This document shows, piece after piece, positions 4,750 to 25,474 of a DNA stretch of 27,984 bases. A program made the translations under genes and the position numbers. Numbering within the stretch: position 1 is the stretch's first letter; each line of letters opens with the position of its first letter. This stretch comes from a virus, in IMG/VR virus record IMGVR_UViG_3300017770_000114, positions 1 to 27,984 of that record, one strand, 5' to 3'. Under the pieces are notes generated by a model, which was not told the DNA's origin, did no database searches, and saw only the letters and a list, made by a program, of their open reading frames with translations.

Positions 4750-5796
4750 ATGGATAAAGCTTATTATAAAACCTTACAACCACTTATTGATAGTGGACAC
4801 TTAGAAGCTGCAATAAATGGTACATATAAATTTCCTGGTGGTGTTAATCTTTTCCCTGGCACTAGTTGCATGTTCGAATGTGCCTTTTGTGGAAGAAACT
4901 ACAATGCCAGACATCCCAACTATAACTATTTTTACGATACCCTTTTAGATCAAGACCCTAAAGATAATCCAAAAAGATATAATATTTCTGGTGGATTAGA
5001 ACCTCTTACATATAACGAAATAGATAGACTAGCAAAAGACCTAGTTGATAGAGGATTCATATCTAGACTAGTAACAAATGGTTACTTGTTAACAAAAAAG
5101 AATTTACAAAAGAAACCAAACCTATTAAGACTACACCATATACGAGTATCACTTTATGGTTATTCAAGACCACAAACCCTCTTGACAACTAGACATGAAA
5201 AGGCGTATGATGTAGTTAAACAAAATCTTACAGACTATAATAAATTAAATGATAAACCACCTTTACATATTAACCATGTCATACTACCAACAGACTTTGA
5301 AAACTTAGATAATATATTGAATTACATAGACGACATTGGAGGGGTAGATACTTTATCATTAAGAGAAGACTTTTCTTTTAAGTACCCGATTAGCGATAGA
5401 CAGCGACTACAGGACAAGCTTCTAGACTTCAATGAGAAGATAAATACTAGATCAATGAAAGTTGATTACGGATACGCTCTAGAGGGATTGTTAGAGGGAA
5501 GAGAAGTAGAACTTCTAAGAGTTAATTATAAACAATTAACAGATACACAATCACCTCAAGTAAGAATAGCGATAGACCCAAAGGGTGATATATATTCATA
5601 CTTTGAGGCAGCTTTTATTGATAGAAATAATTCAGAAAGGCATATCTTAGGAAATGTTATCAACTCATCAATTCAAGATGAACTTAAAAATCTAAAAAAA
5701 ATTAAACCAGAGGAAAATGATATTGAATTTTTCGATGCATTCAATCACGTTATAGAAGGTTACAAATGGATGAAATTACAAGAAACGAACCAGTAA
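4750..5796 (+). CDS. Radical SAM enzyme, DesII-like (amino-sugar lyase type)
   Basis: 348 residues. The [4Fe-4S]/SAM motif CxxxCxxC is C40-C44-C47 (SCMFECAFCGRNY), followed by a GGLEPL motif (GGE-like, SAM-binding), a TNGYLL strand and an SLYGY strand, as expected for a partial TIM barrel. The CMFECAFCGRN context and the following NARHPN resemble dTDP-4-amino-4,6-dideoxyglucose ammonia-lyase (DesII)-type enzymes as I remember them. The close partnership with a DegT-type aminotransferase, overlapping by 31 bases, strengthens that reading. DesII enzymes deaminate a 4-amino sugar by radical chemistry. No Shine-Dalgarno is obvious before the ATG at 4750. The radical SAM call is firm; the DesII-type substrate is inference. 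Confidence 0.8.
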   Translation: MDKAYYKTLQPLIDSGHLEAAINGTYKFPGGVNLFPGTSCMFECAFCGRNYNARHPNYNYFYDTLLDQDPKDNPKRYNISGGLEPLTYNEIDRLAKDLVDRGFISRLVTNGYLLTKKNLQKKPNLLRLHHIRVSLYGYSRPQTLLTTRHEKAYDVVKQNLTDYNKLNDKPPLHINHVILPTDFENLDNILNYIDDIGGVDTLSLREDFSFKYPISDRQRLQDKLLDFNEKINTRSMKVDYGYALEGLLEGREVELLRVNYKQLTDTQSPQVRIAIDPKGDIYSYFEAAFIDRNNSERHILGNVINSSIQDELKNLKKIKPEENDIEFFDAFNHVIEGYKWMKLQETNQ

Positions 5797-6407
5797 TAAA
5801 GTTTGAAAAAACAATCGCTGAATTTTTTGGAGCACCATATGGTGTTGCAGTTGATAGTTGTACAAATGGATTAGAACTTTGTTTTAGATTAGATCAACAA
5901 CAAAGAGGTAAGAAAGTTATCATTGCAAAAGTACCTCTTTACACATATGTTTCTATTCCTAATATGCTAGACAAGATTGATCAACAATGGAAATGGGAAG
6001 ATAACAAATGGATAGGATACTATAATCTAACAGATGAAATTATTGATGCAGCAGTATATTGGAAAAAAGGTGGTTATGTACCAGGCACAAAAATGGTTTT
6101 AAGTTTTCAAAGAACAAAACATTTATCCACAGACAGAGGTGGAATGATATTACTAGACAATGAAGAAGATGCATCTTTACTTAGAAAAATGGCATATGAC
6201 GGAAGAGCCAGAACAGATGTAGCATGGTGGAAACAAGAAATAGATGTAGTTGGGTATCATTACTATCTATCACCATCCAAAGCAGAATTGGGAATGAAAA
6301 ATTTTGAAGCAGTAAAAGACGCCCAAGTCAAAGAGAAAAATTGGGATTACTACAGAGATATAAGTAATTACCCTATATTCAAAACTAGAAAATTCGATTT
6401 AAAATAA
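5766..6407 (+). CDS. DegT/DnrJ/EryC1/StrS-type PLP aminotransferase, C-terminally short
   Basis: 213 residues. Sugar-aminotransferase landmarks appear in order: FEKTIAEFFGAPYGVAVDSCTNGLEL (start of the PLP fold, SGT-like loop), IIDAAVYW with D94 (the DAA motif that contacts the PLP ring nitrogen), and SFQRTKHLSTDRGGMI with K118 at the Schiff-base lysine position. YHYYLSPSKAELGMKNF matches the family segment just before the C-terminal domain. Typical members have about 370 residues, so roughly the last 150 are absent; the frame ends cleanly 3 bases before the next promoter. AGAAGG at 5754-5759 supports the ATG at 5766 inside the radical SAM gene. It may be a minimal enzyme, a partner subunit, or a catalytically altered form. 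Confidence 0.78.
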   Translation: MDEITRNEPVIKFEKTIAEFFGAPYGVAVDSCTNGLELCFRLDQQQRGKKVIIAKVPLYTYVSIPNMLDKIDQQWKWEDNKWIGYYNLTDEIIDAAVYWKKGGYVPGTKMVLSFQRTKHLSTDRGGMILLDNEEDASLLRKMAYDGRARTDVAWWKQEIDVVGYHYYLSPSKAELGMKNFEAVKDAQVKEKNWDYYRDISNYPIFKTRKFDLK

Positions 6408-6446: not shown

Positions 6447-7442
6447 ATGTACTTAGAACAAAAATATCTATTATTAGCATCACCACAATTAGGGCTCTTT
6501 AAGAAAAAGAGTAATACCCTATACAACTTTCGTTGTCCTTATTGTGGCGATAGTCAAAAACATAAAATGAAGGCAAGAGGATATTTCTTTGCCAAAGATA
6601 ATAGTCTTATTTACAAATGTCATAACTGTGGTGTAGGTGCAAACTTACCCAACTTCTTAAAAAAGTTAGACCCTAAATTATACAATGAATTTATGACAGA
6701 AAAGTTTAGGGAACAACCTGAACGATTTGCAGAGATCAAACTAAAAGAAGAAACTAAAAAATTATTAAAAGAAACTACATCTAAGTTAAGATCAGTTAAA
6801 AAAATATCACAACTTCCGATTGAACATTCGGCAAGAAAGTTTTGTGATATGCGAATGATTACTAATAACAAGCATTACTTAATTTATTACACTGATCAGT
6901 TTTATAAATTTATAAACACACTTGTTGAAAATAAGTTTCCTAGTATTGAAAAAGATCATCCTAGATTATTAATTCCTTTTTTTGATGAAAAAAATATTTT
7001 ATTTGCCATTCAAGGGCGGTCTCTAGGAAATGAGAGTCCTAAATATATCACTATCAAAATTAATGAGGACAAAGATAAACTCTACGGATTAGAACGAGTT
7101 GATTGGAACAAGACTGTTTATGTAGTAGAGGGGCCTCTAGATAGCCTATTTTTAGATAATGCAATTGCAACAGCTCAGTCTGATTTAAGAGTTGCAAACA
7201 AAGAGGTAGCAGTTTTGGTACCTGACAACGAACCACGAAATAAAGAAGTGGTAAAACAGATTGAGAAATATATAAATGAAAAATACAATGTTGTGATTTG
7301 GCCAAGTGATATAAAACAAAAAGATATAAATGAAATGATAATGTCTGGTAAAACTGAACGAGACATTAAAGATATTATTGCCCGTAATACATTTAATGGT
7401 TTACTTGCAAAAACAAAGCTTAGTCAATGGAAAAAGGTTTAA
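6447..7442 (+). CDS. DNA primase, T4 gp61-like (zinc finger + TOPRIM)
   Basis: 331 residues. An N-terminal zinc finger is formed by C30-x2-C33 (FRCPYCGDS) and C58-x2-C61 (YKCHNCGVG). A TOPRIM core follows with E228-G-P-x-D232 (VVEGPLDSLFL) and VLVPDNEPRN (D260). Size and domain order match the T4 gp61 family, which makes pentaribonucleotide primers for lagging-strand synthesis with the gp41-type helicase; neither the helicase nor polymerase genes are in this window. It is first in a transcript with a near-consensus promoter and apparently no 5' leader. Its last 16 bases overlap the next gene. Confidence 0.92.
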   Translation: MYLEQKYLLLASPQLGLFKKKSNTLYNFRCPYCGDSQKHKMKARGYFFAKDNSLIYKCHNCGVGANLPNFLKKLDPKLYNEFMTEKFREQPERFAEIKLKEETKKLLKETTSKLRSVKKISQLPIEHSARKFCDMRMITNNKHYLIYYTDQFYKFINTLVENKFPSIEKDHPRLLIPFFDEKNILFAIQGRSLGNESPKYITIKINEDKDKLYGLERVDWNKTVYVVEGPLDSLFLDNAIATAQSDLRVANKEVAVLVPDNEPRNKEVVKQIEKYINEKYNVVIWPSDIKQKDINEMIMSGKTERDIKDIIARNTFNGLLAKTKLSQWKKV

Positions 7443-8608
7443 AAGATAAACGGGGTAATCCTGTACCAAGTTTTCAAAAAGATTTTAAAAACCCTTTTGG
7501 GTCAAAGTCTTATTGTACCAAACCTTTTTGTCAAACATTTACAGATGCAGCTAATAGATATAGGTTGTGTGCTGATGCTGGGATAACGGAAGAAATAAAA
7601 GATATGAATATAGAAACAACTTTACCTTTAGACTATCATTACTCACCAGAAATGGATAAAGTAAGAGAGAAAATGTTAAAGGGTGAAAAGGTAAGTGGTT
7701 GTGAAATTTGTTACGAACAAGAATCTAAAACAGGTTGGTCTTATCGTCAACAATACATGTCAAGGATTGATGAATATGGTTTAACAGAATTTCCTAGAGC
7801 ACCTTTAAAACCACGTATCAAATTAAGAACGATTGGTACTAAATGTAATCTTGGTTGTTTTATGTGTAGAGCTTATGATTCATCAACAAGACGTAAAGAA
7901 TTAACTCAAGCAAACTTATGGGATGAGTGGCGTGATACAGGAATTAAAGAATATGAAAATACTAGAGTTAGAAGTGTAGGTAATAAAAGACATAAAGAAA
8001 TTTTGAAACATCTTAAAGAACACGAAGATGGTATTCATATGTTTCATATGTGTGGTGGAGAACCATTAATATTAGATAGATGCTGGGAAATACTTGATCA
8101 AGTTTCAGACAAAGCAGCCTCTAAACAAAAATTAGTTATTACTACAAACTTAACAACTTTAGATTATAAAGGTCATAGTGTAAATGCATTAGCAGAAAAA
8201 TTTGGAAAACTAGAACTTGAAGTTTCATGTGATCATTATGGTGAAAAATTTAGGTGGATTAGATACCCAATTGATGTAGATGTATTTGAAGAAAATCTAT
8301 ATAGAATGAGACCACACATTGAAAGAATACAATGTACAGTTTCAATACTTAACATATTTGACCTAAAAGAAATAGAAGATTATTACATGGATAATTTTGG
8401 TATTACTGTTCATTGGTATGCGCTGTATAGTCCTACCTCATTATCGATAAAGAACTTACCAAACAAAGATGAGATTCCATATATACCAACAGACGAAATT
8501 AAAGGCGAGTTAATGAAAGAATGTGTTCCTAGTGAACTTGCAAAAGGATACAAATATATTAATAGCCTTGAGGCTCATAGAGGGTTTAAATACCCATCAA
8601 ACAGATAG
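7427..8608 (+). CDS. Radical SAM protein with N-terminal twitch-like cysteine domain
   Basis: 393 residues. The radical SAM motif is C140-NLG-C144-FM-C147, with a CGGEPL motif around residue 210 and TTNLTTL/EVSCDHYG strands. Before it lies a cysteine-rich segment with C30, C35, C48 and then C92-x2-C95 (GCEICYEQE), preceded by MDKVREKMLKGEKVS. This arrangement is what is annotated as a twitch domain-containing radical SAM protein in marine phages, with an auxiliary cluster domain placed ahead of the barrel. The substrate is unknown; peptide or tRNA-like modification is possible. It lies between primase and nrdA, overlapping the former and 8 bases before the latter, so it is probably expressed with the nucleotide-metabolism genes. 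Confidence 0.85.
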   Translation: MEKGLKDKRGNPVPSFQKDFKNPFGSKSYCTKPFCQTFTDAANRYRLCADAGITEEIKDMNIETTLPLDYHYSPEMDKVREKMLKGEKVSGCEICYEQESKTGWSYRQQYMSRIDEYGLTEFPRAPLKPRIKLRTIGTKCNLGCFMCRAYDSSTRRKELTQANLWDEWRDTGIKEYENTRVRSVGNKRHKEILKHLKEHEDGIHMFHMCGGEPLILDRCWEILDQVSDKAASKQKLVITTNLTTLDYKGHSVNALAEKFGKLELEVSCDHYGEKFRWIRYPIDVDVFEENLYRMRPHIERIQCTVSILNIFDLKEIEDYYMDNFGITVHWYALYSPTSLSIKNLPNKDEIPYIPTDEIKGELMKECVPSELAKGYKYINSLEAHRGFKYPSNR

Positions 8609-10394: not shown

Positions 10395-11690
10395 ATGGAC
10401 GTACAAATATATACAACACCAACTTGTGGTTATTGTTTAAACGCAAAGAATTGGTTTAAAGAACATGGAATAGAGTTTAGTGAACACTCACTAGTTAACG
10501 ATGACGATAGACTAGAGTTTTTTCAAAGAGTAAACAATGTAGAAGAAAAATTAGGGAACAATCAACCAGGTGTTATGTCTGTTCCACAAATTTTTATTAA
10601 TGGAGAAAGAATTGGTGGGTTTACAAATCTATTAGAAAACTCTGAAAAGATTTTAAAAAGAAGAGGTGGTGGACTGTATAAGTTTTCTGAAACATACAAA
10701 CCATTTTATTTTCCTTGGGCTGTTGACTTTGTACAGAAACACGAAAAAGTTCATTGGATTGAGGACGAAGTTGATCTATCCGAAGATGTTACTGATTGGA
10801 AAGCTGGAAGAATGACCGAAGTTGAAAAAGACTTTGTAACAAATGTTTTGAGATTGTTTACACAATCAGATGTTGCAGTTGGTCAAAACTATTACGATCA
10901 GTTTATTCCTAAATTTAAAAATAACGAAATAAGAAATATGCTTGGTTCATTTGCATCAAGAGAAGGTATTCATCAAAGAGCATATGCATTACTTAACGAA
11001 ACACTTGGTCTACCAGACGAAGAGTTTCACGCATTCTTAGAATATAAAGAAATGGCAGACAAAGTAGATTTTATGATGGATTCAAATACAAATACTAAAA
11101 GAGGTATGGCACTTGCATTAGCAAAATCTGTTATGAATGAAGGTGTGTCTTTGTTTGCATCGTTTATTATGTTGTTAAACTTTCAAAGATTTGGCAAGAT
11201 GAAAGGATGTGGTAAGATTGTAGAGTGGTCAGTAAGAGACGAGTCAATGCACGTTGAAGGTATTGCACACCTATTCAGAGCATTCTGTTCAGAAAATGCA
11301 TCTATCGTTGACAATGATTTGAAAAAAGAAATCTATGAAATGTCTTCAAAAGTTGTAGACCTAGAAGATAAGTTTATTGATCTTGCATACAAAATGGGTG
11401 AACCACAAGGTCTTCCTAAAGAAGATGTGAAGAATTACATCCGATATATAGCTGATAGAAGACTATTACAATTAGGATTAAAAACAAACTTTAAAGTAAA
11501 AGAAAATCCTATTGCTTGGTTAGAGTGGGTTTTAAATGCAGCTGATCATACTAATTTCTTTGAAAACAGAGTAACAGAATATGAAGTTGCTGGGTTAACA
11601 GGGGATTGGCACGAAGCATATGGCTCACCAAAAGACAGAGTTGTATGTGATGATGATACAGGTACATGTGAAATTAAGGTAGCAGTATAA
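10395..11690 (+). CDS. nrdB: Glutaredoxin-NrdB fusion: ribonucleotide reductase beta subunit
   Basis: 431 residues with two domains. Residues 1-90 form a glutaredoxin: CGYC active site at C11-C14, SVPQIFINGERIGG (cis-Pro loop and GSH-binding GG). Residues 100-420 form a ferritin-like R2 protein with D159, E190-x2-H193 and Y197 in EGIHQRAY (diiron ligands and the tyrosyl-radical position of E. coli Y122), then NEGVSLFASF and RDESMHVEG for the second half of the site. The fused glutaredoxin is well placed to reduce the CVSC tail of NrdA directly. The C-terminus carries a CDDDTGTC motif before the tail that should dock to NrdA. It is the second gene of the nrd pair. Confidence 0.95.
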   Translation: MDVQIYTTPTCGYCLNAKNWFKEHGIEFSEHSLVNDDDRLEFFQRVNNVEEKLGNNQPGVMSVPQIFINGERIGGFTNLLENSEKILKRRGGGLYKFSETYKPFYFPWAVDFVQKHEKVHWIEDEVDLSEDVTDWKAGRMTEVEKDFVTNVLRLFTQSDVAVGQNYYDQFIPKFKNNEIRNMLGSFASREGIHQRAYALLNETLGLPDEEFHAFLEYKEMADKVDFMMDSNTNTKRGMALALAKSVMNEGVSLFASFIMLLNFQRFGKMKGCGKIVEWSVRDESMHVEGIAHLFRAFCSENASIVDNDLKKEIYEMSSKVVDLEDKFIDLAYKMGEPQGLPKEDVKNYIRYIADRRLLQLGLKTNFKVKENPIAWLEWVLNAADHTNFFENRVTEYEVAGLTGDWHEAYGSPKDRVVCDDDTGTCEIKVAV

Positions 11691-11691
11691 C

Positions 11692-11853
11692 ATGTCAAAG
11701 AAGACAATACTTTGTGAACATTGCGAGGCATCTTTCTCGTTAAGATATGATATGGATGATGACTACTTTAAACCAAAGTATTGCCCTTTTTGTGGTGACG
11801 ATTTACCAGAGGAAGATGAGTATAGTATATTAGAAGAGGATGACAATGAGTGA
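11692..11853 (+). CDS. Zinc-ribbon microprotein
   Basis: 53 residues. Two CxxC knuckles, C8-x2-C11 (LCEHCEA) and C31-x2-C34 (YCPFCGDD), spaced 19 residues apart, make a zinc ribbon. The C-terminal third is very acidic (EEDEYSILEEDDNE). Such small acidic zinc ribbons often act as protein- or nucleic-acid-binding adaptors; the function here is unknown. It begins 2 bases after the nrdB stop and its stop overlaps the start of the RimK-RimB gene, so all three are probably co-transcribed. Confidence 0.8.
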   Translation: MSKKTILCEHCEASFSLRYDMDDDYFKPKYCPFCGDDLPEEDEYSILEEDDNE

Positions 11854-13243
11854 AAAATTAAAAAACCCTGTAGTAAAAAACTTTACGAGTTTTTATGAAC
11901 AAAAAGATATTACTGTTGATCACAGTATAGTAATTGTCCATGTACAAGAAAAGTTATCACACTCTGTACAAAGACTTATCGAAGAGTGTAAAAAACAAAA
12001 GATAAAATTTTATCTTTGTAATGTTGATGGTGCTTATATTGAAGATGGTTTCTTGTATCGTGGAAAAGACGATAGAGGTTTTAAACTATCTGACAATGTA
12101 GTTTCAATTATCTTAGGGGATGTACATCAAAAAGATAGTTATTTAAACTTCTTATCTGAATTAGAAAGAACAGGATGTACTCTTGTTAATAGTAGAAGAA
12201 CTATTGAAGTATGTTCAGACAAATATAGAACATATCTAAATTTAAAAAGAGCAGATATTTCTCAACCTAAAACAGTTTTAATTCCAAACAAAGATGCTGC
12301 CGAAGATGCATTAGAAAAACTTGATACAAAGTTTCCTATTATTTTAAAGACTACAAAAGGTTCAAAAGGTATTGGTGTTATCTTTATTGAATCCGAAAGA
12401 AGTTATAACGCAACAGTACAATTACTACTTAAAATTGACGAAGACGTTGAGTTATTAATTCAAGAATATATAAAAACAGACGGTGATATAAGAACTATTG
12501 TTTTAAATAATAAAGTTATTGCGTCTATGAAAAGACATGTAATTGAAGGTGACTTTAGATCAAACTTCTCTCAAGGTGGAAAAGTATCTAAGTACAACTT
12601 ATCAAAAGAAGAAGAAGAAAAAGTATTACTAACTGCAAAAAAAATAAATGGAAAATGGGTAGGAGTTGATTTTATTCCTACAAAGGATGGCCCAAAAATT
12701 ATTGAGGTCAATCACTCACCAGGGTCTGAAGGTATCGAAGATGCATCAGGCCAAAATATTATGGGAGAACTAGTTGGACTTTGGAAAGATGAAACAACAA
12801 GAGAACATGTAGCTGAAGAATGTGGTTATCTAGAAATGCTAAACATTGAACCATTTGGCCCAATCATTGCAAAATTTGATAGTGGTAATTCTTCATTGTC
12901 TGTAATTCATGGTGACACAATTAAATACGATGCGTCTAAGAAAACTGTTACATGGAAACTATTTGGTAAGACTATTACAAAACCTTTAGATCATATTAAA
13001 AAAGTAAACCTTGGTGGTCTTAGAGATTACAAAGAAACTAGATATGTTGTTAAGTTAGATGTTGAGTTTGCAGGTAAAACATATGAAGATGTATTATTTA
13101 CTATTGATGATCGACCAGATACTAGAACAAGAATACTACTAAACAGGGGTTTTATGACAAGACTAAATGTTATGGTTAATCCACAGAAAAAATATGTCTT
13201 GACAAACAAGATCATTACTGATAAGATGTTTAGAAGTGATTAA
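11846..13243 (+). CDS. RimK-like ATP-grasp ligase fused to RimB-like retropepsin domain
   Basis: 465 residues from the ATG at 11846 (an upstream in-frame ATG at 11840 would add two). The first part, to about residue 320, is a RimK-type ATP-grasp: a FPIILKTTKGSKGIGV ATP-binding loop (about 163-178) and an IIEVNHSPGSEG metal-binding motif. From about residue 335 the sequence changes to a RimB/PF05618 retropepsin-like domain: IIAKFDSGNSSLSVIH with Asp-Ser-Gly in place of the usual Asp-Thr-Gly, FTIDDRPDTRTRILLNRGFM, and VNPQKKYVLTNK. RimK adds glutamates to the C-terminus of ribosomal protein S6, and RimB is its functional partner, so a ribosome target is plausible. AAGAGGA at 11834-11840 favours the 11846 start. 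Confidence 0.85.
   Translation: MSEKLKNPVVKNFTSFYEQKDITVDHSIVIVHVQEKLSHSVQRLIEECKKQKIKFYLCNVDGAYIEDGFLYRGKDDRGFKLSDNVVSIILGDVHQKDSYLNFLSELERTGCTLVNSRRTIEVCSDKYRTYLNLKRADISQPKTVLIPNKDAAEDALEKLDTKFPIILKTTKGSKGIGVIFIESERSYNATVQLLLKIDEDVELLIQEYIKTDGDIRTIVLNNKVIASMKRHVIEGDFRSNFSQGGKVSKYNLSKEEEEKVLLTAKKINGKWVGVDFIPTKDGPKIIEVNHSPGSEGIEDASGQNIMGELVGLWKDETTREHVAEECGYLEMLNIEPFGPIIAKFDSGNSSLSVIHGDTIKYDASKKTVTWKLFGKTITKPLDHIKKVNLGGLRDYKETRYVVKLDVEFAGKTYEDVLFTIDDRPDTRTRILLNRGFMTRLNVMVNPQKKYVLTNKIITDKMFRSD
13199..13227 (+). promoter_or_regulatory. Candidate sigma70-type promoter for the 13236 gene
   Basis: TTGACA at 13199-13204, a 17-base spacer, and TAAGAT at 13222-13227, inside the 3' end of the RimK-RimB gene. 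It lacks the AACCC extension seen at other promoters. The only available start of the next gene, GTG at 13236, lies 9 bases after the -10, close to +1. The -10 matches consensus at 4 of 6 positions. Confidence 0.5.
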
Positions 13244-13529
13244 GCATTCTGTCATATTTGGCCCTGGGTACGAACATGATAGAATAAAACATTTAAGAAA
13301 GTGTGCATCAATACGAGCAAGATATAAAGTAAGAGTTGATGTAACTGATTATAGAATTATTGGAAATGAAATTTGGAAAGATGAACATTGTAATGCAGAC
13401 CTTATTGAATTCTTCGGTGACAGAAAATTTTGGACGTGGTTTGAAAAGGTATATATATTAAAAGAGAAAAGTGATATAGAAGAAGAAAGATTTAATTATG
13501 AGAACACAATCAGCAAAAGCAAAGGGTAG
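13236..13529 (+). CDS. Small hypothetical protein with GTG start
   Basis: 97 residues, not recognised. The frame has no internal methionine, and the first plausible initiator is GTG at 13236, which overlaps the RimK-RimB stop region. The protein is basic in the N-terminal half (HDRIKHLRKCASIRARYKVRVDV) and has a tryptophan-rich FFGDRKFWTWFEKVY segment in the second half. It has no signal peptide. Its 3' end overlaps the nuclease gene by 32 bases. A promoter-like sequence places transcription start next to the GTG, so it may be read from a leaderless message. Confidence 0.65.
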   Translation: MIKHSVIFGPGYEHDRIKHLRKCASIRARYKVRVDVTDYRIIGNEIWKDEHCNADLIEFFGDRKFWTWFEKVYILKEKSDIEEERFNYENTISKSKG

Positions 13530-13896
13530 AAGACTACAACAGTGGTTTAGAGACCTTTTAATCAAAACACTAAACATCCATGAAGAAGACATAGAGTCAA
13601 GATCGATGGGTGCAGGCGGCGAAGATTTAATTATGGCTCGTGACGCCAGACAAAAATTTCCATATTCAATCGAATGTAAGAACCAAGAGAAAATTAATCT
13701 TTGGGAATCATACGAACAAGCAAAACAAAATTCTAAAACTTATGAACCTATTGTGGTAATGAAACGCAATAATTCAAAACCTTTAGTCTTAGTAGATGCA
13801 GAATATTTTGTATCACTACATAAAAAAAATAATAACAATGGGAGTAGCGATGCCGAAAATGAGAATGTTCAAATTTTGGAACGAAACGGGTCTTGA
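13498..13896 (+). CDS. PD-(D/E)XK nuclease, Holliday-junction-resolvase-like fold
   Basis: 132 residues. The short restriction-endonuclease-like core is visible: a basic first helix (KAKGRRLQQWFRDLL), D43 in MGAGGEDLIM, and E59-C-K61 in YSIECKNQEK, giving the metal-binding D...ExK set. This small family is common in T4-like marine phages. Candidate roles are resolving branched DNA or degrading host DNA. The start at ATG 13498 lies within the upstream gene, and the C-terminus overlaps the next gene by 47 bases. Confidence 0.8.
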   Translation: MRTQSAKAKGRRLQQWFRDLLIKTLNIHEEDIESRSMGAGGEDLIMARDARQKFPYSIECKNQEKINLWESYEQAKQNSKTYEPIVVMKRNNSKPLVLVDAEYFVSLHKKNNNNGSSDAENENVQILERNGS

Positions 13897-14104
13897 AAAA
13901 GAAACGGAACAACTATCTCTGAAGAGAGCTGTAAAAGCAGTACAAGGAGATTATAAAGATCAGTTTATTGGAGTAGAATATATTACCAAAAAAGGTAAAC
14001 AAATAGAACAAAGAATTAAATTACCCTACGGAAGAAAATATCGTCAAGCATTAGCACAGGAAGCGAAAAGAGCAGCTGCTAAAAAAGCTATGGAGAAAAG
14101 GTAA
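13850..14104 (+). CDS. Small basic phage protein
   Basis: 84 residues from the ATG at 13850. I prefer this start over an in-frame ATG at 13796 because GGGAG lies at 13840-13844 and the longer form adds residues buried in the nuclease gene. The protein is basic throughout, with a GVEYITKKGKQIEQRIKLPYG beta-like segment and a K/R/A-rich C-terminal helix (QALAQEAKRAAAKKAMEKR) that could bind nucleic acid. The function is unknown. Confidence 0.7.
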   Translation: MPKMRMFKFWNETGLEKETEQLSLKRAVKAVQGDYKDQFIGVEYITKKGKQIEQRIKLPYGRKYRQALAQEAKRAAAKKAMEKR

Positions 14105-14107
14105 TTT

Positions 14108-14254
14108 ATGATAGGAAGAAATACATCAGGTTATGAAAAACCTAGACCTAAAAAAACTTCTCAAAGTAGAAGAAGTAGAAGCGTGAAAATGTCTTCTATG
14201 AATAAACATAAGAAACGACAATATAAATCATACAGAAAACAAGGAGTAGTATAA
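14108..14254 (+). CDS. Very basic 48-residue protein (Arg/Lys/Ser-rich)
   Basis: 48 residues: MIGRNTSGYEKPRPKKTSQS, then RRSRSVK and NKHKKRQYKSYRKQG. It is almost entirely basic and polar with no hydrophobic core, so it is probably disordered until bound to nucleic acid or another partner. A similar tiny protein occurs in T4-like cyanophages as far as I recall. It starts 3 bases after the previous stop, and its TAA overlaps the next ATG (TAATG). Confidence 0.7.
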   Translation: MIGRNTSGYEKPRPKKTSQSRRSRSVKMSSMNKHKKRQYKSYRKQGVV

Positions 14255-14439
14255 TGGAAAATCCACATGTATATATGTTAAATCAAATCGAAGTCTATAA
14301 AATGGAAAACGAAAGATTTACAGAAAAAGGTATCAAGTCTGCTGGAACAAAGGCAAGAAAAGCATTAGCAGAAATTGGTAAATGTGTTAAACTAAGAAGA
14401 AAAGAAATACAAGAAGCAAAAAATCAGAGTAAGGGTTAA
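14254..14439 (+). CDS. Small helical basic protein
   Basis: 61 residues, mainly helical and basic: MENPHVYMLNQIEVYKMENE, then KGIKSAGTKARKALAEIGKC and KLRRKEIQEAKNQSKG. The KSAGTKARKALAEIGK segment faintly recalls short basic DNA-binding helices such as histone H1-like repeats, but this is too short to assign. AAGGAG at 14241-14246 supports the start. It ends 4 bases before the deacetylase start. Confidence 0.7.
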   Translation: MENPHVYMLNQIEVYKMENERFTEKGIKSAGTKARKALAEIGKCVKLRRKEIQEAKNQSKG

Positions 14440-14443
14440 GTTG

Positions 14444-15058
14444 ATGAACGTACTTGTAATTACGGCACACGCAGACGATTTAGAACTTTCTATGGGCGGC
14501 TCAGTTAAGAAGTGGACAAAGGATGGTGGGACAGTAGATAACATCATCCTAACCACTGATAAAAGAAGAGAAGATGCTATTGATGACACGACAAGAATAT
14601 TAGGACATCAAGCAATCTTTTATCCTAGTCACTTGTTAGAAACTGCAAGACCTGTAATGAATCATAAACTTGTAAAAGACATGGAACAATTTATTAATAC
14701 ATGTCAATTTACAAAACAATTAAAAGAATATGATTATGTAATTACACATTGGAAAGAAGATTGGCATCAAGATCATCAAACTTGTTATAATCTAGTTAGA
14801 TCGATGCAAAGAAATCAACCAATGCAAGTTATGTACATGGAGTCATATCCATATTGTAACAAGTACAGTAACTTTGACCCAAATGTTTTTGTTGACATTA
14901 CCGACACTCAAACTTATAAAGAAGATAGCATATTTGCTTTTGGCGATTTGTTTAATGTTGCTTGGATAAAAGGAGTAAAAGGCCTTGATACATATAGAGG
15001 TTCATTCATCAAAGCAGATTATGCTGAGTGTTATAAGTTGGATACAATGATACTATGA
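14444..15058 (+). CDS. PIG-L/LmbE-type N-deacetylase
   Basis: 204 residues from ATG 14444; a TTG at 14441 is the alternative. The N-terminal AHADDLELSMGG motif (H9, D11, D12) and the HQDH motif (H108, D110, H111) are the zinc and catalytic signatures of PIG-L/LmbE/MshB N-acetylglucosaminyl deacetylases. These remove an acetyl group from N-acetylglucosamine-containing substrates. AAGGG at 14431-14435 is the Shine-Dalgarno. It opens a run of overlapping or abutting genes that also includes an amidinotransferase and a glycosyltransferase, so a role in making a free amine on a sugar is attractive, though inferred. Confidence 0.85.
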   Translation: MNVLVITAHADDLELSMGGSVKKWTKDGGTVDNIILTTDKRREDAIDDTTRILGHQAIFYPSHLLETARPVMNHKLVKDMEQFINTCQFTKQLKEYDYVITHWKEDWHQDHQTCYNLVRSMQRNQPMQVMYMESYPYCNKYSNFDPNVFVDITDTQTYKEDSIFAFGDLFNVAWIKGVKGLDTYRGSFIKADYAECYKLDTMIL

Positions 15059-15600
15059 AAAGATACTTTGATGAAGTCTGGCCAGAAGAAGAAAAGATTT
15101 TAGGTATTGGTTTAAAACAATCAAAATTACACAAAGCAGAGAGACAAGAATTGACATTAGAACAAGAAGTTGAAAAATGGATTGAACAGAGCATATCAAA
15201 ACCAAATAAGATTTTTGGTAATCTACCACCATGTCCTTATGCAAGGAAAGCATGGAAAGATAAAAAGGTAAGTGTGCTAACAGATACATTCTCACTTGAT
15301 TATGACAAACTAAAGACTGGTGAGTTAGATGTAATTCTTATCGTGCTAGAGGGAGCGACCTTTGAAACCCTTTTGGACGAGAAAAAAAGTCTGCAAAAAA
15401 ATTTGGGTAAAGGGGTCGTTGTGTTAGAAGATCACCCAGAGCAAAAAGAAGAAGTTGGTGGTATGAATTTAAATTTTGGTAAACCTGTTTTATTTGTACA
15501 AAGTAGAGATAAATTAAATGAAGCTAGAAAGTATCTAGAAACTAAAGATTATTATAAAAATTTTGATAAGGAGTATAAAGATGATATACTGTCGAATTAA
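15055..15600 (+). CDS. Unknown protein with LPPCPYA motif
   Basis: 181 residues. After a helical N-terminus (EQEVEKWIEQSI), a LPPCPYARKAW motif with one cysteine (about residues 57-67) is followed by alternating strands and helices (VSVLTDTF, LDVILIVLEGATFETLL, GKGVVVLEDHPEQ, KPVLFVQSRDKL). The W(I/L)EQ...CPYA pattern weakly recalls DUF1415-type proteins, but I would not assign it. It overlaps the deacetylase by 4 bases (ATGA) and the next gene by 20 bases, so it belongs to the same translationally coupled cassette. Confidence 0.75.
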   Translation: MKRYFDEVWPEEEKILGIGLKQSKLHKAERQELTLEQEVEKWIEQSISKPNKIFGNLPPCPYARKAWKDKKVSVLTDTFSLDYDKLKTGELDVILIVLEGATFETLLDEKKSLQKNLGKGVVVLEDHPEQKEEVGGMNLNFGKPVLFVQSRDKLNEARKYLETKDYYKNFDKEYKDDILSN

Positions 15601-16018
15601 ACTATCTAAAACTAATTACAAATCTTATGAAAACTCTCTTATATTAGACAAACCTAATATTAAAGAAATACAAAAAATTTACAAACAATATTGTGATCAC
15701 AAAAGATTTAAATCTGTTATGCCAATATTTGAAAACGATGTTAAAATACATAAAGTTATGGCATATTATCATGAAGGTGAGTTTGTGGCATTTAGTTTAT
15801 TATATGAATTAGATGAACACAATATAGAAGCATTACAATTTGCATGGAATTACAAAACACCAAAATTAAGATTAGGTATTGTAAGTTTAGAAAATGAATG
15901 TAATTGGGCAAAAGCAAATGGTTACAAATATCTTTATCTTGGTAGAGGCGATGTTTATAATAATCCCAATAACTATAAAAATCAATTTAAAGGATTTGAA
16001 GTACTAGGAGCTTTATAA
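15581..16018 (+). CDS. GNAT-fold transferase, arginyl-transferase (ATE)-like C-terminal domain
   Basis: 145 residues from ATG 15581, chosen because AAGGAG lies at 15568-15573; an in-frame ATG at 15563 is less favourable. The order KVMAYYHEGEFVAFSLLYEL, then GIVSLENECNWAKANGYKYLYLG and NYKNQFKGFEVL matches the C-terminal acyltransferase-like half of arginyl/leucyl-tRNA-protein transferases, where a YLYLG...YK-QF pattern is typical. The N-terminal cysteine-rich ATE domain is missing. It could transfer an aminoacyl group from tRNA or an acyl group from CoA. Its stop overlaps the next start (TAATG). Confidence 0.65.
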   Translation: MIYCRIKLSKTNYKSYENSLILDKPNIKEIQKIYKQYCDHKRFKSVMPIFENDVKIHKVMAYYHEGEFVAFSLLYELDEHNIEALQFAWNYKTPKLRLGIVSLENECNWAKANGYKYLYLGRGDVYNNPNNYKNQFKGFEVLGAL

Positions 16019-16350
16019 TGGACTTATATACAATATACGCAGATCATCATGAAAATATAGATGCTAAAGAATTTATAGGAAAGATGAAACCTTTCTTAGA
16101 TGGTCTTGTTAAAATGAATAGAATGGTTTCATATAGAATAACTAGAGCAAAACTAGGATTTAGGTCTATGGACTTACCAGAGTTTCGTATTGATATGAAT
16201 TTTAATAACATGCAACAATTAGATGATGCAATGACAAGTATTATTAGAAATGAAAAAAGTATAGATGATAAACATGTAAACTTTAATAAACTCGTAGATG
16301 TTGAAACCATTCAACACTTTTTATATAGGGACTACCCAGATGAAAGTTAA
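16018..16350 (+). CDS. Small protein, possible ferredoxin-like alpha/beta fold
   Basis: 110 residues, unassigned. A strand-helix-strand pattern (MDLYTIYADH, a helix to about residue 34, MVSYRITRAKLG, then a FRIDMNFNNMQQLDDAM strand-helix) resembles dimeric alpha/beta-barrel proteins such as DUF6614-type proteins. No catalytic residues can be pointed to. It starts inside the TAA of the upstream gene and overlaps the amidinotransferase start by 11 bases, so it probably forms part of the same functional unit. Confidence 0.7.
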   Translation: MDLYTIYADHHENIDAKEFIGKMKPFLDGLVKMNRMVSYRITRAKLGFRSMDLPEFRIDMNFNNMQQLDDAMTSIIRNEKSIDDKHVNFNKLVDVETIQHFLYRDYPDES

Positions 16351-17551
16351 TAGTTGGACTCATTGGCAACCTTTGAAACAAGTTGTTCTTGGAAATGTAT
16401 TTTCACCAGAATTTTTTGAAGATGTTAAAGATACAAAGTTAAGAGATTCTTTACAAAGAGTCATGTATGAGACTAAAGAAGATTTAGATGGTATCAAGAA
16501 GACACTAGAAGACTTAGGTGTTGAAGTTATTCAAGTAGATGATCGTTGGGCAGATAGTCTTGGTTTAAATCCTCATAAGACTTTTGGAGAGTTTTTAGAA
16601 AAATCAAAAACATCAAAAGGCCCTATGGCATTAGCAAAACCACTTATGTCACCTAGAGACAATTATATTACTATGGGTAATGATTTACTTATAAGTGCTC
16701 AGTACAATCCACAAATGGCAATAGATGGTAAACATCCTTTAGATATGTTTGATGTTGATCTAACTTTAATTAAAGATATGTGGAAAAACATTGGTAGTAA
16801 ATTAGGTCCATTTAGACCAAATGAACAAGAATTAAAAAATGAGTTGTGGACGGAACAAGAATACTTTGATATAAACATGAAACGAGACCCAGCTGCATTT
16901 AGACAGTATGTATGGGAAACTTGGAATTTTGCAGCACCACATATAACAAGAATAGGTGATACAATACTTATTGATGAGGGGCAACATAATTATAGAAAAG
17001 GAATTTCAGAATGGTATAATAAATTTAGACCAGACCATAAATATAAATTTAAACTTATTGATATTGGTGGACATAATGATGGTTCTATGAATATACCAAA
17101 ACCTGGTTTAGTTATTGGTTCACCATGGATGGAAAAAGATTTCTTTAAAGAAACATTGCCTGGTTGGGATTGTTTGATTATTGAACATCCAAATAATTTT
17201 GAACAACAGTTTCCAAAAGAATATGAAGACTATAAGGCTAAAAAACGAGCTGATATGCTTTGGTATGTTGATGAGGAAAAAAATAATACAGCATTTGGAA
17301 ATTTTGTTGATTTATATTTAAAAGAATGGGTTGGATTTATGGAAGAGTCGGTCTTTGAAGTTAATATGTTAAGCATAGATGAAAAAACTATTTTATCATT
17401 TAACAAACAAAAAGAAGTACACAATAAATTAAGACAACATGGAATAGAACCTATCTACACTAGATTTAGACATAGACATTTTTGGGATGCAGGTTTACAT
17501 TGTTTAACACTAGATACAGTAAGGGAAGGTGGTTGTGAAAGTTATCTATGA
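16340..17551 (+). CDS. Amidinotransferase (arginine:glycine / inosamine-phosphate type)
   Basis: 403 residues from ATG 16340. An in-frame ATG at 16298 would lengthen it by 14 residues into the upstream gene. Family features seen are a WTHWQPLKQVVLGN opening, SPRDNYITMGNDLL, the GGHNDGSMNIPKPGLVIGSP segment (a His/Asp pair aligning with the catalytic His region), VFEVNMLSIDEKTIL, and the C-terminal catalytic cysteine C388 in DAGLHCLTLDTVREGG. Enzymes of this family move an amidino group from arginine to an amine (glycine, inosamine phosphate) through a covalent Cys intermediate. Next to a sugar deacetylase and a glycosyltransferase, the acceptor could be an amino sugar. The downstream gene overlaps its stop by 4 bases. 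Confidence 0.85.
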   Translation: MKVNSWTHWQPLKQVVLGNVFSPEFFEDVKDTKLRDSLQRVMYETKEDLDGIKKTLEDLGVEVIQVDDRWADSLGLNPHKTFGEFLEKSKTSKGPMALAKPLMSPRDNYITMGNDLLISAQYNPQMAIDGKHPLDMFDVDLTLIKDMWKNIGSKLGPFRPNEQELKNELWTEQEYFDINMKRDPAAFRQYVWETWNFAAPHITRIGDTILIDEGQHNYRKGISEWYNKFRPDHKYKFKLIDIGGHNDGSMNIPKPGLVIGSPWMEKDFFKETLPGWDCLIIEHPNNFEQQFPKEYEDYKAKKRADMLWYVDEEKNNTAFGNFVDLYLKEWVGFMEESVFEVNMLSIDEKTILSFNKQKEVHNKLRQHGIEPIYTRFRHRHFWDAGLHCLTLDTVREGGCESYL

Positions 17552-18240
17552 TAAACTTTTGTGTTTTAAAATTTGGTAAAGAATTAAAAGGAAGATCAAC
17601 AATTGATTTAGTAAATGAAATAGTTGAACCTATAAAAGATATTGCTTTACATTGTTATACAGATAATCATGATGGTATCGATGGTAGATTTAATGTATAT
17701 GAATTATCAGAGGAAGATAAAGAAAAACATATTCATTGGAACATGATGAAGTTTTTTGACCCAGAGTTTATCGGTGCAAAAGAAACAGATCAAACTATTT
17801 ACATGGATATTGATGTAACATGGAACAAAGACCCATCGCCTATGATTAATCATGTTATTAACTCTAGTGAAATACTTGGTATTGATAGACATTGGAAAAC
17901 AGATGAAACAAATGATAATTGTAATTTACATGATAGTTTTTTAAAGTTTAATTCACACGATTTTAAATATATTGCACAATGGTATTTTTCAGACCCAAAA
18001 TGGTATCAAACACACTATTATGAAAATAAAAAAGTTTCTGTACCTAGATATGGTGTACAAAATTTTATATGGGAAAGTGTCAATAAAGTCGCAGGCAAAA
18101 ACATAAAATTTCTACCTTCTCACTATGTTATGAAATCTCACAAAGATAAATATAGTATATACGCTGAACAATACAGTAAGAAAACGGGTAGGGACTATTA
18201 TAAAGACTTTGACGAAGCAATACTGCATTATCTCACATAG
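17548..18240 (+). CDS. Glycosyltransferase-like protein with DxD motif
   Basis: 230 residues. The N-terminal strand MINFCVLKFG and IALHCYTDNHDGID, then QTIYMDIDVTWNKDPSPM with D87-x-D89, follow the GT-A plan of nucleotide-sugar-dependent glycosyltransferases, where DxD binds the metal and diphosphate. A late HYVMKSHKDKYSIYAEQY segment could supply the final metal-ligand histidine. Donor and acceptor are unknown. It ends the coupled cassette that starts with the PIG-L deacetylase. Its stop is followed directly by a structured RNA and terminator. Confidence 0.75.
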   Translation: MINFCVLKFGKELKGRSTIDLVNEIVEPIKDIALHCYTDNHDGIDGRFNVYELSEEDKEKHIHWNMMKFFDPEFIGAKETDQTIYMDIDVTWNKDPSPMINHVINSSEILGIDRHWKTDETNDNCNLHDSFLKFNSHDFKYIAQWYFSDPKWYQTHYYENKKVSVPRYGVQNFIWESVNKVAGKNIKFLPSHYVMKSHKDKYSIYAEQYSKKTGRDYYKDFDEAILHYLT

Positions 18241-18368
18241 GACAGAGGAGTCTGCCTTTGACTAGACAGTCGAAGATTAGACTCAGAAAGAAGCGTTTCA
18301 TACAACGCTGTAATAGACGAAAAGTCTATCGTAGAATACTACAGGGGTATATTTCCCCCTCATTTTTT
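18241..18368 (+). ncRNA. Structured 3' RNA with multiple hairpins and terminator
   Basis: The first 128 bases after the glycosyltransferase stop hold consecutive hairpins: GAGTCT (18248-18253)/AGACTC (18279-18284) enclosing TTTGACT/AGTCGAA (18257-18263/18268-18274, one G-U pair); AGCGTT/AACGCT (18292-18297/18304-18309); ATAGAC/GTCTAT (18313-18318/18324-18329); GTAG/CTAC (18331-18342); then a terminator. My count gives 51 G+C of the first 120 bases (about 42%), higher than the adjacent genes. There is no reading frame of note and no convincing promoter, so a 3'-UTR-derived small RNA or a protective 3' end is the likeliest form. Confidence 0.6.
18343..18368 (+). terminator. Rho-independent terminator
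   Basis: AGGGG (18343-18347) pairs with CCCCT (18356-18360) across an 8-base loop. A CA and six T (18363-18368) follow. It ends transcription from the PIG-L-to-glycosyltransferase cassette, ahead of the late promoter at 18454. Confidence 0.8.
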
Positions 18369-18453
18369 GCAAATTTAATTCAAAATATTTCAATTATGGA
18401 ATAGGACTTGCATCTATTTTTGGTCTAGGGTGTCATTTTTTTGACGCTGATTT

Positions 18454-18461
18454 TATAAATA
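18454..18461 (+). promoter_or_regulatory. T4-type late promoter TATAAATA
   Basis: An exact TATAAATA late-promoter octamer, 38 bases ahead of the preferred ATG at 18499 and just past the terminator ending at 18368. It is therefore in the right place to start the next block. One arm of a 9-bp inverted repeat (CATCTATTT 18411-18419 / AAATAGATG 18458-18466) overlaps it. Confidence 0.8.
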
Positions 18462-23809: not shown

Positions 23810-24298
23810 ATGGCAGTAAATAAAAATATATTTAACACTAATACTAACAGCTCGGGTACGTTGTTAATATCTGAAGTGTTAGATAAAGTACACAAAGCAA
23901 AAACAAAAGCAGATAAACTAAAAATTTTGCAAGCAAATGATTCTGCACCACTAAGAATGGTAATCAAATCTTCATTTGACCCAAAAATTGAATGGATATT
24001 ACCAAAGGGTGAAGTACCATTTAAAGCAAATGATGTTCCAGCTGGAACTGAACATACTAGACTTCATTCAGAGTCAAGAAAACTTTATCGTTTCATCAAA
24101 GGTGGTGATGCAGATACACCTCAGTACAAAAAAGAACTTATGTTTGTACAGATGTTAGAAGGTTTACATGAGTCAGAAGCAAGAATGTTAGTAAATGCAA
24201 AAGACAAATCTTTACATAAAGTATATAAAGGTTTATCAAAAGACTTGGTTAAACAAGCATTTAATTGGAACGAAGACTTTAATAGAATAGACGCATAG
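23810..24298 (+). CDS. DUF6433 family protein
   Basis: 162 residues with the pattern of DUF6433 as I know it from T4-like cyanophages: ISEVLDKVHKAKTKADKLKILQANDSAPLRMVIKSSFDP, ILPKGEVPFKANDVPAGTEHTRLHSESRKLYRFIKGG, KKELMFVQMLEGLHESEARMLVNAKDKSLHKVYKGL and VKQAFNW. It is fully soluble and mainly helical, with no known function. Its constant place near replication genes in marine T4-like phages suggests a part in replication or transcription, but this is only context. Confidence 0.85.
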   Translation: MAVNKNIFNTNTNSSGTLLISEVLDKVHKAKTKADKLKILQANDSAPLRMVIKSSFDPKIEWILPKGEVPFKANDVPAGTEHTRLHSESRKLYRFIKGGDADTPQYKKELMFVQMLEGLHESEARMLVNAKDKSLHKVYKGLSKDLVKQAFNWNEDFNRIDA

Positions 24299-24306
24299 GT
24301 GGTAAA

Positions 24307-24858
24307 TTGCAACTTGCAGATTACATTAAAATATACGAAAGTAAATTAAGTAAGAATCTTTGTAATGACATAATTAGTTTTTACAAAGAAAATGCTATTT
24401 GGAAAGACTCAACGTTTTCTAGCAACAAAGAAAACACTGGTTCGTCTAGTGTTAGTATGCGAGAACATTGGGTACGACCAGGTAAAAAATTCCACAATGA
24501 ACTAGACAAAACTTTTAAAGAATGTGTTCATTGGTATACGCAAGAATATCCTAGAATTACACCAATCGCATATACGGCATTTAGAATAAACCACTATGGT
24601 AAAGGTGGATTTATGAGAAACCATGTTGACAATATTTACAAAAGTCATGGTCAACAATATGGTTATCCTCACTTAACATCTTTAGTATTTTTAAATGATG
24701 ACTATGAGGGAGGCGACTTCCTTATGTGTGATCAATCTATCAGACATAAACTCAACCAAGGTGATGTGATTGTCTTTCCTAGTAACTTTATGTTTGACCA
24801 TGAAGTTGAAAAAGTTACTAAAGGTGATCGATATACCTGTATGACATGGATAATGTAA
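24307..24858 (+). CDS. 2OG-Fe(II) oxygenase, prolyl-4-hydroxylase-like
   Basis: 183 residues with a TTG start at 24307, supported by AGGTGG at 24297-24302. Iron ligands H106-x-D108 (MRNHVDN) and H165 (MFDHEVEKV), with R175 for 2-oxoglutarate, sit in the P4Hc-like pattern: HLTSLVFLNDDYEGGDFLM and NQGDVIVFPSN. Enzymes of this type hydroxylate proline or other side chains; some act on ribosomal proteins, which would fit the bS21 neighbourhood, but the substrate cannot be read from sequence. A second oxygenase follows directly. Confidence 0.85.
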   Translation: MQLADYIKIYESKLSKNLCNDIISFYKENAIWKDSTFSSNKENTGSSSVSMREHWVRPGKKFHNELDKTFKECVHWYTQEYPRITPIAYTAFRINHYGKGGFMRNHVDNIYKSHGQQYGYPHLTSLVFLNDDYEGGDFLMCDQSIRHKLNQGDVIVFPSNFMFDHEVEKVTKGDRYTCMTWIM

Positions 24859-24859
24859 A

Positions 24860-25474
24860 ATGAACTACATGAACGGAAAATTCAGACACCAAAGAGTATT
24901 CTCAACACACATTTTTTCTTGCGATAATTTTTATCCATTTGTAGAAGAATTAAATGCTACTGTTCAATTAGGATACGAACCACATATTCCTAATTGGCAA
25001 TCTAGACCTAATCTTCACAAAGAAAATAACTTTAAAAATTTTGCAGAATATATTATCGAAGCAAACAAAGAAGTAATTCGTGATAACTTAGGTTATATAT
25101 TTGATGATATTAGAATTACAGACATGTGGGCAAATGTATTGAAACCTGGTGAGTATCACGCACCACACACACATTCAAATAATTTTTACAGTGGTGTGTT
25201 TTATCTAGACGCAGATAACACATCTGGCATTTGTTTTTCTGACCCCAAATCACAAGCAAATGTTATTGTACCCGAATCAAATCCAAATCTAGACAATGCA
25301 AATGTTCTAGAATACAAGGCCGAATCGAACCGAATCTACATATTTCCTAGTTGGATTTCTCATTGGGTACCCGTATTAAAAGGGAACAAAACTAGAACAT
25401 CTGTATCTTGGAACATTCAACTTAAAGGAAACGTAGGAAAATCAACACATTTTCAGAGTGCTTTTTTTGAATAA
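24860..25474 (+). CDS. Putative 2OG-Fe(II) oxygenase, PF13759-like
   Basis: 204 residues. The core WANVLKPGEYHAPHTHSNNFYSGVFYL carries H103-x-H105, and IFPSWISHWVPV (H168) with R179 in NKTRTSVSWN completes the metal and cosubstrate site. HPHxH-SGVxY is the hallmark of the PF13759 / TIGR02466 group of putative oxygenases frequent in marine phages and bacteria. It has HxH where most 2OG enzymes have HxD. The start is one base after the previous stop, with weak Shine-Dalgarno, so coupling is likely. Confidence 0.82.
   Translation: MNYMNGKFRHQRVFSTHIFSCDNFYPFVEELNATVQLGYEPHIPNWQSRPNLHKENNFKNFAEYIIEANKEVIRDNLGYIFDDIRITDMWANVLKPGEYHAPHTHSNNFYSGVFYLDADNTSGICFSDPKSQANVIVPESNPNLDNANVLEYKAESNRIYIFPSWISHWVPVLKGNKTRTSVSWNIQLKGNVGKSTHFQSAFFE

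Follow-up and report, generated by a model that had tools for sequence, protein, structure and literature searches.

A mobile four-gene phage cassette, perhaps directed at the guanidine group of arginine, lodged within a sugar-directed gene pair

Do six overlapping genes in a phage genome make up one pathway, or has one set of genes come to lie inside another? The question is raised by positions 14444 to 18240 of the IMG/VR virus record IMGVR_UViG_3300017770_000114, whose 27,984 nucleotides are here called the window. Six open reading frames on the + strand lie there end to end, with ATG starts at 14444, 15055, 15581, 16018, 16340, and 17548. They encode a PIG-L/LmbE-type zinc de-N-acetylase (14444-15058), a DUF6875-like protein (15055-15600), an ATE_C/GNAT-type transferase (15581-16018), a DUF6614 protein (16018-16350), an amidinotransferase-superfamily protein (16340-17551), and a probable GT-A glycosyltransferase (17548-18240). 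A first-pass annotation, made from the sequence alone, took overlaps of 1 to 20 bases to imply a single pathway leading to guanidino-sugar decoration. The overlaps are as it described (4, 20, 1, 11, and 4 bases), a Shine-Dalgarno sequence (AAGGAG) stands immediately 5' of the ATG at 15581, and the six reading frames are real and translationally coupled. Its gene calls and enzyme classes also agree with Pfam and profile matches, that of the glycosyltransferase being sub-threshold. The single pathway fares worse. The stretch divides into a sugar-directed pair, PIG-L and the glycosyltransferase, and a mobile cassette consisting of the four genes between them (15055-17551, + strand).

The evidence comes from relatives fetched from IMG/VR using each gene family of the window as a seed, a gene being counted as a neighbor if it lies within 5 kb of the seed gene. 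All of the records compared may be fragments. The clearest case is L261, which is syntenic with the window from NrdB to window position 24298 at 72-98% protein identity. Its DNA aligns at 83.7% across window positions 13489-15061, and the alignment resumes at 84.8% from position 17548. In place of the 2486 bases between (15062-17547), which amount to exactly the four cassette genes, L261 has 207 bases, and its PIG-L and glycosyltransferase genes adjoin each other. This pair is not peculiar to L261. The PIG-L seed gave 38 loci (the glycosyltransferase seed gave 21), and in 23 of the 38 the two genes are neighbors, 18 times without the cassette.

The cassette likewise occurs without the pair. 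For the DUF6875-like, amidinotransferase-like, and DUF6614 seeds, the best 80 of more than 560 relatives each were examined, and as the ranking was by likeness to the window's own families, the fractions that follow are biased. Around the amidinotransferase-like seed, a DUF6875-like gene is found in 54 of the 80 loci, an ATE-like gene in 49, and DUF6614 in 29, while PIG-L is found in only 2 and the glycosyltransferase in 4. Around the DUF6614 seed, the amidinotransferase-like gene is found in 50, the DUF6875-like gene in 50, and the ATE-like gene in 49. Nearly all locus groups have the cassette without PIG-L or the glycosyltransferase. Because L261 lacks the cassette block, and because the pair and the cassette each occur apart, the stretch is read as two modules, the cassette being a separate unit that was acquired or lost between the two genes of the sugar pair. 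Co-occurrence of all six genes across phages, which the first-pass annotation had offered as a check, thus breaks down into that of a pair and that of a set of four, and the guanidino-sugar pathway was rejected as a single unit.

Other loci show how freely the cassette is arranged. In L301 and L016, only the DUF6875-like and ATE-like genes stand between PIG-L and the glycosyltransferase. In loci of the L004 type, the order is glycosyltransferase-cassette-PIG-L, and identity to the window is 95% for DUF6614 and 82% for the amidinotransferase-like protein but 39-41% for PIG-L and 34% for the glycosyltransferase, which points to separate histories for cassette and pair. Maps of 66 groups, with one locus per group, show the core cassette genes in at least 12 orders or orientations, for example DUF6875-ATE-DUF6614-AGAT, DUF6875-ATE-AGAT, DUF6614-AGAT-DUF6875 with a reversed ATE, and a reversed AGAT followed by ATE-DUF6614-DUF6875. 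The large records in which a partner is not found locally (G001, G002, G003, G013, and G017) hold the missing member elsewhere; in those of 328, 106, and 182 kb it is the amidinotransferase-like gene, and in those of 70 and 323 kb it is the DUF6875-like gene. In the other records checked, mostly shorter and possibly fragments, the missing partner was not found anywhere. The settings vary as well. In some phages the cassette directly follows the genes for scaffold, major head, and tail tube proteins; elsewhere it adjoins baseplate hub genes, comes after ribonucleotide reductase-like genes, or is set among radical-SAM genes. Many diverged groups of loci have these four middle genes together, so their association in the window is not due to chance.

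What kinds of proteins, then, does the cassette encode? That of 403 amino acids at 16340-17551 matches human AGAT (E 6e-25) in a profile search against solved structures, and also SxtG, HsvA, and StrB. A structural model of it (whole-model predicted local distance difference test, or pLDDT, 68) gives Z scores of 23.5-24.9 to amidinotransferases as compared with 20.4-21.6 to arginine deiminases. In AGAT, the catalytic triad is D254-H303-C407, and residues 170 and 305 bind guanidine (numbering verified on the alignment with 1jdw). Cys388, counted from the ATG at 16340 and singled out by the first-pass annotation, is indeed aligned with AGAT Cys407. The equivalents of His303, Asp305, and Cys407 (in the window, His245, Asp247, and Cys388) are present in 52 of 52 representative sequences, that of Asp170 (Asp107) in 51 of 52, and that of Arg169 in 51-52 of 52. 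What the annotation overlooked is the position of Asp254, which is Ala in the window and acidic in only 5 of the 52 phage sequences, and on this account the protein is classed as amidinotransferase-like and not as a canonical member of the AGAT family. It thus shares with human AGAT, SxtG, HsvA, and StrB1 the pentein fold, the Cys nucleophile, His303, and the guanidine-binding Asp170 and Asp305, but it differs from them in the missing Asp254, in an identity by structure of 18-23%, and in being phage-borne. Nothing ties it to a sugar, as had been supposed.

The gene at 15055-15600 went unnamed in the title of the first-pass annotation, and with it a probable heme oxygenase was passed over. An AlphaFold2 model based on 45 relatives has a pLDDT of 89. 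When compared with solved structures by VIA-align, AglA entries took ranks 1-5 (Z 7.3-7.6 over 131-138 residues, root mean square deviation 3.2-3.5), the next unrelated fold coming at Z 4.5; the five entries are of one protein and hence count as one match, and a Z below 8 is weak on its own. AglA is a thiolate-heme enzyme, its heme ligated through Cys44, that hydroxylates a guanidine nitrogen (PMC12866846). Trp42, the motif PPCPYA (containing Cys60), His127, Gln149, and Tyr167 are invariant in 65 sequences. Also, the DUF6875 profile (PF21780) matches 18 of 45 relatives, with E values up to 0.1 and 2e-4 at best, and DUF6875 proteins are reported to be heme-binding oxidases, with hydroxylation of tryptophan at C-7 (PMC13307353). 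The DUF6875 similarity, the heme binding reported for that family, and the invariant Cys of PPCPYA, His127, Gln149, and Tyr167 together support a heme-oxygenase fold, and the protein is probably a thiolate-heme oxygenase with a fold like that of AglA. Run against the sequences of solved structures, the DUF6875-like profile yielded nothing useful.

Two groups of known enzymes bear comparison with this protein. Among the heme guanidine N-hydroxylases, i.e., AglA and the YqcI/YcgG enzymes (DcsA, GntA, Mhr24, and ChmN), AglA is the best fold match, and the invariant Cys is a candidate heme ligand. The window protein differs from this group in its smaller size (a domain of about 150 amino acids), in the modest Z score, and in that PF08892 (YqcI/YcgG) matches neither it nor its relatives; no YqcI/YcgG sequences were found in 12 cassette-bearing phage records. 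The tryptophan heme oxidases of the DUF6875 family, such as ZigI, resemble it weakly by profile over residues 37-129, which include PPCPYA and His127. It differs from these in falling below the Pfam cut-off and in its gene partners, and its substrate is likely different.

The ATE-like protein (145 amino acids in the window, 145-151 in all) scores 34.6 bits against PF04377 (ATE_C; cut-off 25), and 16 of 19 relatives match this family too. Only C-terminal ATE and GNAT models match, the N-terminal domain of ATE being absent. A search of solved structures gave only a weak match to ATE (E 0.48). The donor would be an aminoacyl-tRNA or an acyl-CoA. The DUF6614 protein scores 70.6 bits against PF20319 (cut-off 25), its alignment shows Arg40, Arg43, Lys45, Arg49, His86, and His100 to be invariant, and a search of solved structures with its profile gave nothing useful. 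Three of the cassette proteins can thus be assigned firmly to families. Of the flanking pair, PIG-L scores 43.6 bits against PF02585 (cut-off 28.2), with a BshB1-like match of 44 bits that falls below its cut-off, and shares the zinc motifs AHADDLE and HQDH with L004. The glycosyltransferase scores 16.1 bits against PF03407 (Nucleotid_trans), short of the cut-off of 22, and has a DID motif.

Since the two best-understood members of the cassette both point to the guanidine group, we give about even chances to the view that the cassette handles the guanidine group of arginine, oxidizing it or transferring it. The substrates, the order of steps, the product, and the benefit to the phage we infer. 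The amidinotransferase-like enzyme would take an amidino group from arginine, or from an arginyl compound, onto its Cys as a covalent intermediate and then hand it to an amine. The ATE/GNAT-like enzyme would place an aminoacyl (perhaps arginyl) or acyl group onto the same scaffold, and the DUF6875-like protein, as a heme-thiolate enzyme of the AglA kind, would afterwards hydroxylate a guanidine nitrogen. DUF6614 may contribute another enzymatic step or act as a small accessory protein. What results would be an N-hydroxyguanidino group carried either by a small molecule or by a protein. The fuller proposal is tentative, and we would put it well short of even: a widespread mobile phage pathway that starts from arginine and ends in an N-hydroxyguanidine, or in a protein bearing that mark, its members being a new, non-canonical amidinotransferase, DUF6614, a heme-thiolate oxygenase of compact size, and an ATE-like transferase.

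A number of observations count against a guanidine-directed cassette. The main doubts arise from the loss of Asp254, which makes canonical amidino transfer doubtful, and from the tryptophan chemistry reported for DUF6875, since oxidation of tryptophan and not of guanidine is the sole activity of that family found in the literature. Also, the match to AglA lies in the range (Z below 8) where the tool warns that chance is possible, Foldseek by itself found no significant match for the model, so that only VIA-align ranked AglA first, the window protein scores 14.4 bits against PF21780 where the cut-off is 24.5, and the YqcI/YcgG profile is silent. Lacking the N-terminal domain, the ATE-like protein may be an ordinary GNAT. 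No paper on DUF6614 was found in the literature searched, which covered few subscription papers or preprints. Finally, the distance matrices of the four cassette families correlate only modestly with one another (r 0.21-0.54).

How do other explanations compare? Perhaps the cassette modifies a protein of the virion or the host, which would first be arginylated by the ATE-like enzyme and then altered at the arginine side chain by the heme and AGAT-like enzymes. The similarity to ATE_C and the location of several cassettes next to structural genes (those for scaffold, major head, and tail tube or those for the baseplate hub) are what one would expect, but the structural operons may be mere insertion sites, the N-terminal domain of ATE is absent, and the maps of the 66 groups show no substrate or precursor gene as a conserved companion of the cassette; we consider this explanation unlikely. 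Loss of the catalytic Asp254 with retention of the guanidine-binding residues would also suit a pentein protein that is a hydrolase, a deiminase, or an inactive relative, in a cassette that degrades the arginine of infected cells or channels it elsewhere. After the amidinotransferases, arginine deiminases come closest in fold; however, amidinotransferases outscore all of them in both sequence and structure, and the breakdown of arginine has no need for a heme oxygenase or for an acyl or aminoacyl transferase. We regard it as unlikely. Alternatively, the heme protein may oxidize tryptophan or some other aromatic amino acid, as its sub-threshold similarity to DUF6875 and the C-7 hydroxylation reported for that family would suggest, the guanidine step then serving a separate part of the product. 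This is distinctly unlikely, in that the closest solved fold is a guanidine hydroxylase and the gene partner across many phages is an AGAT-like protein.

The six-gene pathway itself, in which PIG-L frees a sugar amine, the amidinotransferase converts it to a guanidino-sugar, and the glycosyltransferase attaches the product, is improbable in view of the empty site in L261 and the separate occurrence of pair and cassette. It retains a small share of our belief because the cassette is flanked by PIG-L and the glycosyltransferase in two arrangements, those of the window and of L004 (with part of it so placed in L301 and L016), which leave room for a functional link; StrB, an aminocyclitol-phosphate amidinotransferase, is also among the structural neighbors. 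Hypermodification of a DNA base, ending in a guanidino group, is very improbable. It is a trait known from phages, and QueD and QueE-like genes lie near the cassette, but in only 3-4 groups, and no DNA-modification gene is a regular partner.

Phages are no strangers to guanidino metabolism. A GAMT gene has been described as an auxiliary gene in Arctic viruses (PMC11360552), and Firehammervirus carries an AGAT homologue. These resemble the cassette in being phage-borne but differ in that they are single genes or have other partners (five radical-SAM genes in CPt10), with no set of heme, ATE, and DUF6614 proteins. The nearest parallel in logic is the argolaphos cluster, which combines a YqcI/YcgG hydroxylase with GNAT proteins proposed to act as aminoacyl-tRNA ligases (PMC8976061). 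That, however, is a bacterial cluster for a phosphonate antibiotic, and an amidinotransferase and DUF6614 are absent from its listed genes. The first-pass annotation considered guanidino-sugar decoration by a phage undescribed, and in the literature searched, with its sparse coverage of subscription papers and preprints, we too found no description of such guanidine chemistry by phages or of an amidinotransferase cassette in them. The folds are known; their combination, mobility, and phage setting are new.

Single members of the cassette also occur on their own. Cyanophages, a Roseobacter phage, and HMO-2011 have homologues of the DUF6875-like protein only, and the gene stands without other cassette members in L061-L094 and in L257 (HMO-2011), where a virion structural protein gene lies just 3' of it. 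For the amidinotransferase alone, homologues occur in Synechococcus phage S-SCSM2R, single-cell virus AG-345-D19, and Campylobacter Firehammervirus. In Campylobacter phage CPt10 (L256, 4869-5840), the homologue lies within a run of five radical-SAM genes, beside PAAR and baseplate genes, and this run may represent another undescribed phage pathway. A tblastn search of 50,697 deposited phage records, within the limit used, found no match to the ATE-like or DUF6614 proteins. The nearest isolate as judged by NrdA is the OM43 phage Melnitz (71%), and no cassette was found among its annotated genes around nrdAB. Scans of genome contigs for a host origin turned up no relative of DUF6614 or the ATE-like protein, though exact short motifs were required and distant relatives are possible. 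Some cassettes have genes for a QueE-like protein and for QueD nearby (L198, L205, and L225; L122 and L185), and in those phages a link with 7-deazaguanine DNA is possible.

In the window itself, a terminator-like hairpin with a T-run (AGGGGTATATTTCCCCCT CATTTTTTGC) follows the glycosyltransferase gene at 18343-18370 on the + strand and, judged by its match to the consensus, would end the transcript. A late promoter of the T4 type (TATAAATA) was considered and dropped: the motif occurs twice in the window, below chance expectation, and not before the cassette. The two copies, at 18454 and 20799, each lie just ahead of an open reading frame. Directly upstream of PIG-L is a gene for a histone H1-like protein of 61 amino acids (14254-14439; Hc1, 41 bits); such a gene also adjoins PIG-L in L016 and lies near the cassette in L049, L062, and L215. 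Close upstream of the cassette is a RimK-family ATP-grasp ligase with an extra C-terminal domain (11840-13243; above the TIGR00768 cut-off), and the sequence at 10395-11690 looks like a fusion of a glutaredoxin-like N-terminus (CGYC) with the small subunit of ribonucleotide reductase. Farther off, a DesII-like radical SAM gene (TIGR04426, 227 bits, below the cut-off of 450) overlaps one for a short DegT/LegC-type aminotransferase of 213 amino acids that seemingly lacks much of the fold (together 4750-6407). A Twitch-domain radical SAM protein above the NF033640 cut-off is encoded at 7427-8608, and two neighboring 2-oxoglutarate-Fe(II) oxygenase-like genes (phrog_61 and phrog_81) lie at 24307-25474.

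The auxiliary genes of phages are usually single enzymes borrowed from the central metabolism of the host. Here a set of four genes has been kept together and reordered and, across many phage lineages, has moved among regions for head, tail, baseplate, nucleotide metabolism, and sugars, and its members are closest to enzymes that make creatine, antibiotics, and toxins. This suggests selection on a joint, undescribed product made in infected bacteria. If the proposed pathway is real, then phages would be running chemistry in the style of natural products during infection, which would be new among studied phages. The cassette also offers two new families that can be put to the test, one of probable heme oxygenases of small size and one of amidinotransferase-like enzymes in which the usual catalytic Asp is missing.

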